DNA from: SAR324 cluster bacterium
GTDB lineage: Bacteria > SAR324 > XYD2-FULL-50-16 > JAERRU01
Reading direction: 5' to 3'
DNA length: 46,691 bases
NCBI GenBank assembly: GCA_016735295.1
Contig: JAERRU010000018.1
Location: 83,774-130,464 of the forward strand
Made by a program: the position numbers and the translations under genes. Each line of letters opens with the position of its first letter. Position 1 is the stretch's first letter. Positions 13,039 to 18,052 of the stretch are shown piece by piece. Under the pieces are notes generated by a model, which was given only the letters and a program-made list of their open reading frames with translations, was not told where the DNA came from and ran no database searches.

Positions 13039-13554
13039 TTAGTAGTAATATTGTAAATTAAGTAAATTATATCGTTTTTTAGATTCTTCACTATCAGGCC
13101 TCTTCATAGCCAATATTTTACTTGCAGACTTTTCTTTGATGAATTCATCTATATTAATTCGAGATAAACTATTTGTCTTATTTCTTTGACCTTCAATTAG
13201 CTCGCCATAAAAGAGCCCATCTTTTTTCTCTTCTTTTAACTCACCAAATCTAGACGGAGCAGAAACTGTTTTTTGAGATATCTGGTAAGCTCCCACCCCA
13301 AGACCTATCATGCAGCCAATGCCAAAACCCATTAACATGTCGTCTCTCAGATTTTTATTTTCTAATGGATCTGTTAACCACACGGCAGCACCAATTGCCG
13401 CTCCGATCACCCCACCAGACGCTGTGTAAATAGTTATTCGACGAAAAATAGGTTCTCCAGAATTTTGTGCTTCTACCTTAGTTGCCCCACTAGTGTATAG
13501 CCCCAATAATAGCAATATAACAATTATAACTTTCATACTTATTTCAATTTTCAC
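13039..13554 (-). CDS. Small exported or membrane protein with glycine-zipper segments, unknown function
   Basis: I do not recognise this family. The 171-residue protein starts with a hydrophobic signal-like segment (about residues 8-26, then KVEAQ). Two glycine-rich hydrophobic stretches follow at about 46-61 (GGVIGAAIGAAVWL) and 74-90 (MGFGIGCMIGLGVGAY), which look like a glycine-zipper hairpin in a membrane. The C-terminal half is charged and ends in three Tyr. An internal Met at position 7 is an alternative start that would give a cleaner signal peptide. It is the last gene of the minus-strand run waaA, CHAT-like gene, this gene; the gap to the upstream gene is 71 bp, so cotranscription is possible. 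Confidence 0.65.
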   Translation of the reverse strand: MKIEISMKVIIVILLLLGLYTSGATKVEAQNSGEPIFRRITIYTASGGVIGAAIGAAVWLTDPLENKNLRDDMLMGFGIGCMIGLGVGAYQISQKTVSAPSRFGELKEEKKDGLFYGELIEGQRNKTNSLSRINIDEFIKEKSASKILAMKRPDSEESKKRYNLLNLQYYY

Positions 13555-13625: not shown

Positions 13626-16600
13626 CTATGACAGGTATAGCAAACTAGGGTTTTTTGATATCGCATAATATTCAGTGTTTTGTGCTGTATTGCCTACCTT
13701 AAAATATATCATCGCCACCTTATCTGACCAAAATTTTATCTTAGTCAAATCATAATCTTTTTTAGCTCTCTTAAGTAGTAAAAAAGCGTATTTCAAAGCA
13801 CTAGCCTTATCTTCAGCTTTTAATTTTAGATAAAATAATTTATGACAAGCTTTATCCATCGTTTTATTATCTTGCGTGAATGTGGCAATCTTCAATATAT
13901 TCTGCCAACCATGGATGAGATAATTTTCTTTATCAGAATCATAAGCTAATTTTAAAAATCGCCAAGTAACCATTAATTCTAATTTACTGCGAATATAGGC
14001 AGGGAAAATATTAAATCGCTCAAATGCCTTGAAAATATCTATTTCAGCAGATTCTTCCAATGAATACCACAAATCCAATAAAGCCAAATCTCGCTTTCTA
14101 AACGGATCATGGCTAATTAAATCATGCTCATATTTAAAATCTTTCGCAAACTCATCAAAAAGTTGCCTATCATTATTGGTCGATAAAGATTTTAATATAG
14201 ATATATTAACGTCAAAATAACAAAATCCAAACAAAGTCTTAGATGTTTGCACCGCCTCTTTAGCTAGACTTAAAAAAATTCTATTATCACTTTTTTGATA
14301 AGATAATCCCGCCAAATAAGCTGTTGCTAATGAATAGGGCGCCCATTGCTCAAAATGCGAAAATTTATCTATCGCTAGTTTAGTAATCTTAATCGCTAAA
14401 TTATGAGGTATCCAACCTAGGCTAGTCTCAAAAAAAACTCGCCAACTACGATCAGAAAATTCAGGCATGGCTGCCGCCTCTAAATGATCAAACCAATTCA
14501 TTATATTCATCCCTAAAATCAATAAATATTCACTAGTAAAATCATTACATTTGATTAATTTCTCTTGCACCATCAATAAAACATTGATTGCACTTTGATA
14601 ATCACCTTTAAATGCCAAAGTTTGTGAGAAATTATTGGACATCAAAAATATCTGCTTTGCAGTTAATTTTTTATCCAAATTAAATCCATCTAGCATGATG
14701 ATTAACTTTTTAGCCGATTTCAATAATTGGTCATCTTTAATGAAATTATAACTAACAAATAAATGTTGATACGCAGGATTTAGATGACACTCCTTTTTAT
14801 CAAAACTAATAAAAACCAAATCTAATTTGATTAATTTCGCTAAATTAATCGCGTAAGCAGAATTTGCATCAAATAAACTCAATAAAAATTCCTTAGGTAA
14901 AGGTATTTTAAATAGATAGAGTGTCACTAAAAATTGAAATTCTTCGCTCGATAAAATTTCCCTAATTTGATATAGTAAATAATTATAAAAATCATCTCTC
15001 CCTAAAGATAATAATTTCTTAAAATTATCTTTATCTAATTCACAAAATATTCCCTGCCAAAGTGGATTTCCTGAAAATGGACTCCTGGAAGATGACAAGT
15101 TAGCCCAATCATAATTATCATCATCAGTAATCGAAAAATTTCTAAATACCTCACTAGGAGAAAGTTTTTTAGTTAAATCAAATTTAGTAGGTTTCTCCTG
15201 TGATCTTAAATAACGAAGGTTAACCATTACCAGCCCTTGATATGGCTTTTTTTTAAACCACCTATTAAAAGATTCTTTGCTACAGATGTTAGGCGGCACT
15301 ATCATTAAATTTTGTTCGCTTTGGGCTAAATTGCTATCGGTTAATAAAAAATGACGCCACATATCATCTAAAAAATCTATTTCTTGCGTGCTATTAGCCA
15401 TTTTTTCTAGACTGTCTAACCCGATAAAATCAACCCCGTTGGCTATTTCGCTTAATCCTATGGTGTTTTCTGTTGGTAAATTAACCAACCAGGCATATAA
15501 ATCATCTTCTAAAATATGAAATTCATTGGTCGCTAAAGTAAGTGGGCGATTTTTATTATCATTAAAATGCTCGCTTATCTGGTGCACAAATGAGCTTTCA
15601 TTAAATTTATAGCGCACAAACTGCTCCTTTTTAAATAGATTGCCCCTTAAGCTAATCAATTTAGCAGTATTAGTGGTAATGATTTTTACGTTAAATGAGG
15701 ATTCTATATTTTTTATAAAATATAATTTGATGTATGGAGTCATCAAAGCTAGGTGATAGCGATCAGATAATCTGGCCAAAGCTTTAAGATGAGCTCTTGC
15801 TAATTTTGAACTTGCCGTTAAATTATTGAGAAATAATTCTAAATATTCACCTAAAATATCCTCATCTAACAAACCTTCAATGGATATAGCAAACTCTAAA
15901 CCCGTATTGGCTAACCAATTAGTGATTTCAGGCAAAGGGGCGTTAGTTTGCCAATCCCAAAATCTAAATATCACCCCTTTTAAGCCTTTAAGACTGGCAT
16001 TTTTTAAAATATTACTCAGTGCATAAAAAGAGATATTTTCTTGCTCGTTGGTCTCTTCATTATAGGCAATCACGCCTTTAGCATCAAAATATGCGGAAAT
16101 AATTATTATGCTAGGAACATCGGTTTTTAAAATATCCATTATTTTTCGACTCAACCAACCCATATTCACCACTTTAAGTTGACGATTACGGTTATTAGCC
16201 AAATATAAAGGATTGATACAAACCTTGTCCTTAGGAAAAAATTTAACTTTGTTGCCTTGCCCCGCTATCTTAGAGGAAAAAGAGCAATTGAATTGATAAA
16301 TAAGCAGTCTATCAAGGATTTGTTGTTCGCTGGCGTAACTTTGCACTATCTTAGGCTGATAGGCTCTTAAAATAGGGATATAATTGATGCAGAAATCTTG
16401 CCCATCGTGGAGCATTTCCCAGTGATGATGACAGGTTTTTTTTTCGTATATATAAAAAAGGTTATAGTCATACAAAGAATCCACCAGTTCTTTAGGAACA
16501 ATCGCTTTATAAAGTTGCTGCCCATAATCACGAAGCACTGCTAGCGTATTTTTTTTATTAGACTCACTGAGTTTACTAAAAAAGCAATTGTCTTGCTGTA

Positions 16601-16736
16601 TTTCACCAATCAGCCGGTGGCAATCTTCAGTTAAGCTAGCCGAAATGTCGCAAAATTCACGAGTAATCCCATCGCTGCTATAATGCAAAAAGCTTCCTTC
16701 TTTTTCAATTAACAGCTTATGATTAGATATGCTCAT
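13626..16736 (-). CDS. Large CHAT-like / STAND-like / TPR-like protein with degenerate active site
   Basis: This 1036-residue cytosolic-looking protein has no signal peptide. Residues 60-325 resemble a CHAT (caspase-like) domain: CHHHWEMLHDGQDF (101-115) matches the PWELLHD motif, then come a following Ile-x-x-Leu-Arg, a strand at VPSIIIISAYFDAKG (207-221) where the catalytic His-Gly would be, and AISIEGLLDEDILGEYLELF (283-302), matching the C-terminal part of the domain. The His is replaced by Ala/Tyr and the usual SACE Cys strand reads VIFRFWDW, so protease activity is unlikely. The middle resembles the sensor and winged-helix part of STAND ATPases, but I see no P-loop. The last 350 residues are helical and TPR-like. 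Its ATG overlaps the waaA stop by 4 bp (ATGA), implying translational coupling. Function is unknown. Confidence 0.6.
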   Translation of the reverse strand: MSISNHKLLIEKEGSFLHYSSDGITREFCDISASLTEDCHRLIGEIQQDNCFFSKLSESNKKNTLAVLRDYGQQLYKAIVPKELVDSLYDYNLFYIYEKKTCHHHWEMLHDGQDFCINYIPILRAYQPKIVQSYASEQQILDRLLIYQFNCSFSSKIAGQGNKVKFFPKDKVCINPLYLANNRNRQLKVVNMGWLSRKIMDILKTDVPSIIIISAYFDAKGVIAYNEETNEQENISFYALSNILKNASLKGLKGVIFRFWDWQTNAPLPEITNWLANTGLEFAISIEGLLDEDILGEYLELFLNNLTASSKLARAHLKALARLSDRYHLALMTPYIKLYFIKNIESSFNVKIITTNTAKLISLRGNLFKKEQFVRYKFNESSFVHQISEHFNDNKNRPLTLATNEFHILEDDLYAWLVNLPTENTIGLSEIANGVDFIGLDSLEKMANSTQEIDFLDDMWRHFLLTDSNLAQSEQNLMIVPPNICSKESFNRWFKKKPYQGLVMVNLRYLRSQEKPTKFDLTKKLSPSEVFRNFSITDDDNYDWANLSSSRSPFSGNPLWQGIFCELDKDNFKKLLSLGRDDFYNYLLYQIREILSSEEFQFLVTLYLFKIPLPKEFLLSLFDANSAYAINLAKLIKLDLVFISFDKKECHLNPAYQHLFVSYNFIKDDQLLKSAKKLIIMLDGFNLDKKLTAKQIFLMSNNFSQTLAFKGDYQSAINVLLMVQEKLIKCNDFTSEYLLILGMNIMNWFDHLEAAAMPEFSDRSWRVFFETSLGWIPHNLAIKITKLAIDKFSHFEQWAPYSLATAYLAGLSYQKSDNRIFLSLAKEAVQTSKTLFGFCYFDVNISILKSLSTNNDRQLFDEFAKDFKYEHDLISHDPFRKRDLALLDLWYSLEESAEIDIFKAFERFNIFPAYIRSKLELMVTWRFLKLAYDSDKENYLIHGWQNILKIATFTQDNKTMDKACHKLFYLKLKAEDKASALKYAFLLLKRAKKDYDLTKIKFWSDKVAMIYFKVGNTAQNTEYYAISKNPSLLYLS

Positions 16737-18052
16737 AATATTTGTTTTATGATCGATGAAACCACTAAATTTAAACTACCAGCGTTTTTACGCATTTCTT
16801 GATAACCCCTTAAAGCCACTTTATCGGCTTGGGCAGGGCTAAAGTAAGCTTTTTTTAAAAACTCAACTAATGCATCTGGCGTTTGCACCACCTTGATTCC
16901 TTCAACCTTTACTAGCATATCTTTTTCCGTCTCAAAATTAGCGACATTGGGGCCTATTGCGGTATATTTTTTAGCCGCTATTGGCTCTAAAAAATTTTGT
17001 CCTCCTCTAGAGCAGATAGTACCACCCACAAACACACAATTTGCCAGCTGATACCATTTTTTTAAAGTACCCATTTTATTTAAAAAAAGCAAATTGTTAG
17101 GATAGACGTAGCTAAGTGAGCCAATCTTGGTGGGGGGTAAATTTTTATTTTTATCGGCTAAAGATGCTAAAAATTCATCTAACTTCGTAATATGACGAGG
17201 AATTATCACCAAAAATGATTTATCAGCCACTTTCCTAAAAGAATGCCAAGCTTGTAATACAAAATCAAGCTCTGATGGTTGTAATGATCCTACGACAACC
17301 AAAAAATCTTTTTCCCCTAAAGGTTTATTAAATGCTAATTGATATTCTTCAGCAAGCTCATCATCTCGCCAAGGAGTATTTAGCTCTATTTTAAAACTAT
17401 TCAGGTGCACTAAAGATTTTTTAGCTATTCCCAATTTACCAAGTCTGGCTATGCTGGCATTAGAAGCAGAGTAAAATTTATTAATTTTTGTTAAAGAATG
17501 GCCTAATAGGCTGGGTAATAATCGGTAAAGCCTAAAGCTATTAAGGCTTAATCTGGCATTAACTGCAAAAATCGGTATGTGCTTATTTCCCATATGCAAT
17601 AGAAAATTTGGCCAATAATCGCTTTCTAAAATGATGAGCGCTTTTATATTTAATTTAGAAAAAGTGTGCTTAATAAAAAAACTAAAATCAAATGGCATCA
17701 CGGCCACTAAGCTTTTATTAAATTTGCTTTGCCTATTTTTTAAAAATTCGTAACCAGATTTTGTATTAACCAAAAAAATTATTCTAAGTTGTTTCTCCGT
17801 AGCATAATAAAGATCGGCAAACTTAATGGCCAGCATAGCCTCACCAAAGCTGGCACTATGAATAATGATTACTGGTTGATGGTGATTGTGCGGGGAATTT
17901 AGCGTGATAGGTGAATATTTCCAATAGATAAACTTTCTAGCTAGCAACCAACGAAAATCTGCCCGGGAAATGCCAGCTATTAATAATAAAGGAGTTAGCA
18001 AGATTAAGATTATAATATAAATCAAATCTAAAATAACAGCTCTAGCAGACAT
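16733..18052 (-). CDS. waaA: 3-deoxy-D-manno-octulosonic acid (Kdo) transferase
   Basis: This GT30 enzyme adds Kdo from CMP-Kdo to lipid A precursor at the inner membrane. The 439-residue protein has an N-terminal membrane anchor (about residues 8-27), the catalytic base Glu in HSASFGEAML (E71), the conserved LESDYWPNFL (usually ELWPN), and the C-terminal CMP-binding segments FVGGTICSRGGQNFLEP and YTAIGPNVANF. All key residues appear present. Whether it adds one or two Kdo units cannot be told. Its stop codon overlaps the start of the CHAT-like gene. The gene diverges from the outer-membrane protein at 18326 across a 273-bp spacer. Confidence 0.92.
   Translation of the reverse strand: MSARAVILDLIYIIILILLTPLLLIAGISRADFRWLLARKFIYWKYSPITLNSPHNHHQPVIIIHSASFGEAMLAIKFADLYYATEKQLRIIFLVNTKSGYEFLKNRQSKFNKSLVAVMPFDFSFFIKHTFSKLNIKALIILESDYWPNFLLHMGNKHIPIFAVNARLSLNSFRLYRLLPSLLGHSLTKINKFYSASNASIARLGKLGIAKKSLVHLNSFKIELNTPWRDDELAEEYQLAFNKPLGEKDFLVVVGSLQPSELDFVLQAWHSFRKVADKSFLVIIPRHITKLDEFLASLADKNKNLPPTKIGSLSYVYPNNLLFLNKMGTLKKWYQLANCVFVGGTICSRGGQNFLEPIAAKKYTAIGPNVANFETEKDMLVKVEGIKVVQTPDALVEFLKKAYFSPAQADKVALRGYQEMRKNAGSLNLVVSSIIKQIL

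Follow-up and report, generated by a model that had tools for sequence, protein, structure and literature searches.

The locus and its gene

The window is a 46,691-nucleotide stretch of DNA lying within one contig (C5) of a SAR324 cluster bacterium, whose genome (G000) amounts to 1.52 Mb and is about 90% complete. The gene studied here occupies 13626..16736 on the minus strand. Its ORF is complete and runs through 1036 codons without a stop, and full-length orthologues of its product, a pseudo-CHAT/pseudo-STAND/TPR protein of 1036 aa, were found. Immediately upstream on the same strand lies waaA, the Kdo transferase gene (16733..18052, minus strand; PF04413, E 7.5e-33). The start of the pseudo-CHAT gene lies inside the waaA stop, the letters common to both being ATGA (TTATGAGC). 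The ORF, the 4-bp overlap with this LPS gene and every sequence string quoted by a first-pass annotation of this DNA were recovered. Just downstream, 13039-13554 on the minus strand encodes a 171-aa glycine-zipper-like protein; genome G008 encodes a relative (L026:1514-1984; 33%, E 2e-15) on the opposite strand, about 6 kb away from its orthologue of the pseudo-CHAT gene.

Pfam, NCBIfam and PADLOC gave no match for the protein, so annotation from the single sequence would leave it as a hypothetical protein. Hydropathy indicated no transmembrane segment. We modelled the protein with AF2 in two parts, residues 1-350 and residues 346-1036.

A single-copy family in two lineages

We refer to the lineage of the window genome as f1, to its sister family in the same order as f2, and to a second and a third family as f4 and f3. 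A tblastn search over relatives returned full-length proteins with about 20-23% identity. In a profile search over 52 genomes of the class, many of them incomplete (a phylum-wide search yielded the same 52), one full-length copy each was found in the window genome, in all ten f2 genomes and in nine of ten f4 genomes. The f4 orthologue of G028 had a lower profile score yet full length (1027 aa), and that of G040 was interrupted by contig ends. The profile search did not find the gene in the f4 genome G032, which is 80% complete. It found no orthologue in the f3 genomes either, where the only strong match was a genuine CHAT/NB-ARC/TPR protein, L077; this absence implies that the gene can be dispensable. 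FliM was present in all 52 genomes, so that a phylogenetic profile with flagella was uninformative.

Several comparisons delimited the family. The N-terminal profiles of f2/f1 and f4 matched over their whole length in hhalign (E 8e-47). When 383 genomes, including some from outside the phylum, were searched with the N-terminal profile, family members scored at least 190 bits, L077 at most 96 and proteins of other phyla at most 72. The best matches outside the family were PF12770 CHAT proteins with HxxGH, and with the Cys where this was checked. The family profile likewise retrieved genuine PF12770 CHAT proteins from its own and other phyla, for example in G027 (E 5e-27) and G347 (E 3.6e-20). 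When the family was compared, profile to profile, with the strongest PF12770 proteins of the phylum (A5), no significant match resulted; that CHAT subfamily is too distantly related, and it is through L077-like proteins and the fold that the family connects to CHAT. A match in a Marinimicrobia contig (31% over 65 aa) lacked family-profile support and was taken as chance.

Two other kinds of CHAT protein were seen in these searches. Nearly every f3 genome has a strong CHAT protein of about 1200 aa (seen at L081-L097, loci mostly of f3; PF12770 E about 1e-75), apparently active and single-copy in most, with the motifs ATHGFF and LSACETG invariant in the aligned copies. In other phyla, L119 and L120 combine an adenylate/guanylate cyclase domain with CHAT, TPRs and a CsgG/LpoB-like domain.

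In the gene tree, the window gene grouped with the f2 genes of its own order, whereas those of f4 made up a separate clade (support 100/99). The tree agrees with the relations of the families and thus fits vertical descent.

A CHAT fold without its catalytic dyad

Residues 1-345 (15702..16736, minus strand) form a CHAT/separase-fold domain in the AF2 model, which for residues 1-350 had a pLDDT of 82.4 and a pTM of 0.85. The top Foldseek matches of this model (E 1.6e-8) were Csx29, SAVED-CHAT, TPR-CHAT, the anti-sigma factor DdvA and separases. With VIA, Csx29 (7y9x) gave Z 18.9 and 3.6 Å over 279 residues, the match spanning residues 4-343; SAVED-CHAT (8tl0) gave Z 17.0, separase (5fc2) Z 16.4 and DdvA, whose fold also resembles the domain, Z 14.6-14.7. 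Residues 4-130 correspond to the first, CHAT1-like half of Csx29 and separase, and residues 135-344 to the catalytic caspase half. These scores place the domain in the caspase-like fold of CHAT and separase. The first-pass annotation had named the absence of a caspase-like fold from residues 60-325 as the refutation of its CHAT reading; with the fold found by AF2, Foldseek and VIA, its own test favours its observation.

The sequence also pointed to CHAT. The conserved CHAT motif WEMLHDG (residues 106-112; 16401..16421, minus strand) reads WELLHDG in relatives, and its E107, D111 and G112 are invariant in the family alignment. The window protein had no match to PF12770 in Pfam and hence is not above the curated cut-off; the best score in the family was 20.3 bits against a cut-off of 24, and one member matched at E 3.4e-4. 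In a PDB sequence search with the family profile, the sole match below E 0.8 was the CHAT protein 8tl0 (E 0.001). We also considered, and rejected, a pseudo-orthocaspase identity: in Pfam, no p20 domain was found in the window protein or among the families shown for orthologues, and the closest sequence kin are CHAT proteins.

We located the catalytic positions by aligning the family with L077, a CHAT protein whose active site is intact (HFTGHG and LNSC). Tyr216 (codon 16089..16091, minus strand) stands at the position of the catalytic His and Trp260 (codon 15957..15959, minus strand) at that of the catalytic Cys, which agrees with the altered catalytic strands noted previously. At the Cys position all 19 relatives have Ser; at the His position 16 have Tyr or Phe, one has Trp and two have His. 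No family member has both catalytic residues, and the protease dyad is, by sequence, dead in the window protein and all 19 relatives. The change of Cys to Ser in 19 of 19 relatives, together with a complete dyad in no member, places the death of the dyad before f2 and f4 split.

A probable vestigial STAND module and a TPR end

Residues ~376-665 (14742..15611, minus strand) probably make up a vestigial STAND module, with an NTPase-like core, a helical part and a winged helix. The f4 orthologues match AAA_16/NB-ARC in Pfam, and the family profile matches AfsR (8k60) over positions 381-974. In Foldseek, the C-terminal part was closest to 6mfv, a STAND ATPase whose sensor is made of TPRs (E 4.4e-7). 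This match and the topology are compatible with an NTPase core that leads into a winged helix and then a repeat sensor, but pLDDT is low in the NTPase part: the model of residues 346-1036 had a mean pLDDT of 66.6, poor in the NTPase-like stretch (25-64) and good in the winged helix and TPRs.

The P-loop site lies at residues 404-411 (15504..15527, minus strand). Alignment without gaps to the nine f4 relatives that carry GxxGxGKT confirmed that the P-loop is missing, as had been proposed. The site reads TNEFHILED in the window protein, and in f1 and f2 it reads, for example, TNEFHILED or GSPVEEY, never GK. The Walker A P-loop of a STAND NTPase is therefore intact in 9 of 9 f4 members and absent from all 11 members of f1 and f2, which suggests that the CHAT and ATP sites died stepwise. 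Since the outgroup L077 has both sites, parsimony implies that loss of the protease preceded that of the ATP site, which occurred in the f1/f2 line.

The protein ends in a TPR superhelix (residues ~668-1028; 13653..14735, minus strand), assigned from the model, profile matches and alignment. The window sequence alone matched no TPR model in Pfam, and 12 of 14 orthologues did; the repeated helix pairs, each of about 34 residues, are seen in the model, and the orthologues give them profile support. The last TPR bears a family motif, LGGLYF..G.Q.KST..Y, which is weakly kept in the window protein. The domain reading of the first-pass annotation, a dead CHAT followed by a STAND module without P-loop and a TPR end, was right.

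Constraint in one pair of orthologues and divergence of the window copy

The closest pair of orthologues, L030 and L032, is the sole fully unsaturated one; most other pairs were saturated at silent sites. In this single measurable pair, dN/dS over the entire gene was about 0.10; taken separately, the dead CHAT part gave 0.10 and the TPR part 0.12, so that the dead CHAT domain appears to be under purifying selection. Identity between the two was lowest in the STAND part (63%, versus 77% in CHAT and 71% in TPR). The degeneration is old and common to two lineages; it is no accident confined to the window genome.

The window protein is the most diverged member of the family (about 21-23% identity). 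Its gene-tree branch is the longest (4.57 versus a median of 0.8), and both the family motif WDW and Ser260 are lost from it. The gene might therefore be a pseudogene in waiting in a reduced genome, left over from a family that other genomes still use. We consider this very unlikely, because the 1036 codons contain no stop and the protein retains its fold, WE.LHDG and the final part of the last TPR. UGP (UTP-glucose-1-phosphate uridylyltransferase) of the same genome, taken as a control, was likewise on a long branch (4.12 versus a median of 0.34), so that fast evolution is not special to the pseudo-CHAT gene, which has persisted in a small genome. The window genome, at 1.5 Mb, is small next to the 2.7-7.8 Mb of its order relatives; its size, the long branches of the two genes tested and the lack of a detectable SelB point to reduction of the genome and rapid evolution.

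Gene order changes around the pseudo-CHAT gene

All ten f2 genomes have the order selB, pseudo-CHAT gene, UGP, usually closely spaced. The gap upstream of the pseudo-CHAT gene ranges from -17 to 246 bp, and in G001 (L037) the gene overlaps the downstream UGP by 4 bp. Most f2 loci are preceded by a gene of ~430 aa, and often also by a nadC-like QRPTase. The ~430-aa protein is conserved upstream of selB in eight f2 genomes (for example, L030:2161-3486), and its L030 copy had no Pfam match at E 0.01. Only in genus g7 is a protein of 757-764 aa encoded between the pseudo-CHAT gene and UGP (L030:9356-11629, L032:11887-14181); the L030 copy of this one had no Pfam match. Around the pseudo-CHAT gene, f2 and f4 had no neighbours in common.

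The overlap with waaA had led the first-pass annotation to suggest a regulator of envelope or LPS synthesis, tied to WaaA by translational coupling, and to propose conservation of the linkage as a check. Besides the overlap itself, a loosely related theme favours the idea, in that the f2 downstream neighbour UGP, with its 4-bp overlap in G001, serves UDP-glucose synthesis. The linkage was not conserved: in each of the ten f2 genomes waaA is single-copy and lies on a different contig, in no f4 genome does it adjoin the gene, and among the genomes examined only the window genome has the two linked. UGP in turn is unlinked to the gene in f4 and in the window genome, where it lies on another contig (C35), and most f3 genomes have WaaA and no pseudo-CHAT protein. 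The proposed tie to envelope synthesis thus found no support in relatives, and we regard it as quite unlikely. Dependence on SelB was rejected as well, because SelB was not found in the window genome and the pseudo-CHAT gene persists there. That the gene outlives its neighbours speaks against a functional tie to WaaA, SelB or UGP.

Defence and regulation of active CHAT proteins

The same annotation offered a former defence gene, repurposed. A defence origin is plausible, given that the protein's closest kin are CHAT proteins with activity, some of which also carry NB-ARC/AAA_16 and TPRs. The architecture is common to STAND immune proteins and the ancestry lies among CHAT-NB-ARC-TPR proteins, so one could also picture an anti-phage protein of the present day whose dead enzyme parts serve as sensor or decoy. 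The data speak against such a present role, which we judge very doubtful. PADLOC had no match for the window protein or for L028; the gene is single-copy, vertically inherited and, in f2, stably placed between SelB and UGP; among the neighbouring genes tested none was a defence gene, and those identified were housekeeping genes. The protein thus matches no known defence model in PADLOC, and it does not combine a defence island with a patchy distribution.

A pseudoprotease might instead regulate a CHAT protease that is active in its own cell, as inactive caspase paralogues do. Each of the ten f2 genomes has 1-4 genuine CHAT proteins that could be such partners. However, no PF12770 match was found in the window genome or in eight of ten f4 genomes, with some doubt as these are drafts, and the other two f4 genomes had one match each below the curated cut-off, that of G028 being the family member itself. 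The protein therefore persists without a recognisable active CHAT protein in the window genome and nearly all f4 genomes, which makes this explanation highly improbable.

An old pseudoenzyme as a proposed scaffold or sensor

Both enzyme centres are dead, yet a single inherited copy has been kept in two lineages; the protein is thus probably a working non-enzymatic scaffold, and its gene probably neither serves defence nor is in decay. We propose, with a probability of roughly 60%, an old, domesticated and vertically inherited pseudoenzyme that acts as a non-catalytic scaffold or sensor. The fold, the loss of both catalytic sites, the single copy, its retention at full length and the constraint are the observed part of this proposal, the binding function and any allosteric coupling the presumed part. 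An ancestral CHAT-STAND-TPR signalling protein would have lost its protease dyad before the two lineages split, and the lineage with the window genome would then also have lost the ATP-binding P-loop, while the shape of the protein was retained. The present protein would work in the cytosol without catalysis. TPRs bind peptides or proteins, and the C-terminal superhelix may bind such a partner. The dead STAND module would be a rigid or hinge-like linker, and the former substrate-binding face of the dead CHAT domain may hold a client protein without cutting it. Behind this proposal stand TPR binding, the roles of dead caspase-like proteins such as SyOC and the core-biology CHAT protein HetF. 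Against it, the modelled NTPase part has low confidence, f3 does without the gene, and the window copy lacks Ser260 and WDW and is the most diverged, and hence could be on its way out.

A more specific view is rather unlikely: the family might be a bacterial pseudocaspase that serves as a core non-immune regulator, with the dead CHAT domain as a substrate trap that binds and shields a client, switched by ATP in f4 and later, in the lineage of the window genome, free of ATP. Under such a trap, the Ser or aromatic residues at the catalytic positions of the dead CHAT domain would have been fixed.

CHAT-STAND-TPR proteins are usually treated as proteolytic immune or cell-death switches. Here, evolution appears to have stripped first the protease and then the ATPase from such a switch and to have kept the body, single-copy, in two lineages. 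Active CHAT relatives, dead CHAT proteins with a P-loop and proteins with both sites dead make up a natural stepwise series for testing the non-catalytic parts. Our literature search found no description of inactive CHAT families.

Comparison with known systems

CHAT proteases with STAND/NB-ARC and TPR (PF12770; for example, L077 in G027, of the same phylum) share with the window protein the domain order CHAT-NTPase-TPR, WELLxDG and the fold. They keep His, Cys and GxxGxGKT, whereas the window protein has none of these. The STAND-TPR regulators AfsR (8k60) and PH0952 (6mfv) resemble it by the profile match and the best C-terminal Foldseek match, respectively; in contrast to them, it has lost the P-loop and bears a dead CHAT effector.

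The best fold match was Csx29, the TPR-CHAT of Craspase (7y9x, 8eex), in which a pseudo-caspase CHAT1 has been described ahead of an active CHAT2 (PMC10028731). Csx29 has its TPR first, is bound to CRISPR and has an active CHAT2, while the window protein is dead in the catalytic half as well; the neighbouring genes that were tested included no CRISPR effector. HetF of Anabaena combines CHAT with a TPR domain and serves a core function outside defence, at the divisome (PMC8406250). It has a transmembrane domain, and no STAND module has been reported in it; the likeness drawn here is one of architecture and role.

In the bacterial pseudo-orthocaspases (YS variants), Tyr-Ser replaces His-Cys within a conserved caspase-like fold (PMC6426788), and knock-out of one of them, SyOC of Synechocystis, gives a stress phenotype (PMC7889975). 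They have p20 instead of CHAT-STAND-TPR and occur mainly in Alphaproteobacteria and Cyanobacteria. Their Tyr-Ser is the same substitution as in most f2 members, and the stepwise series described here parallels them.
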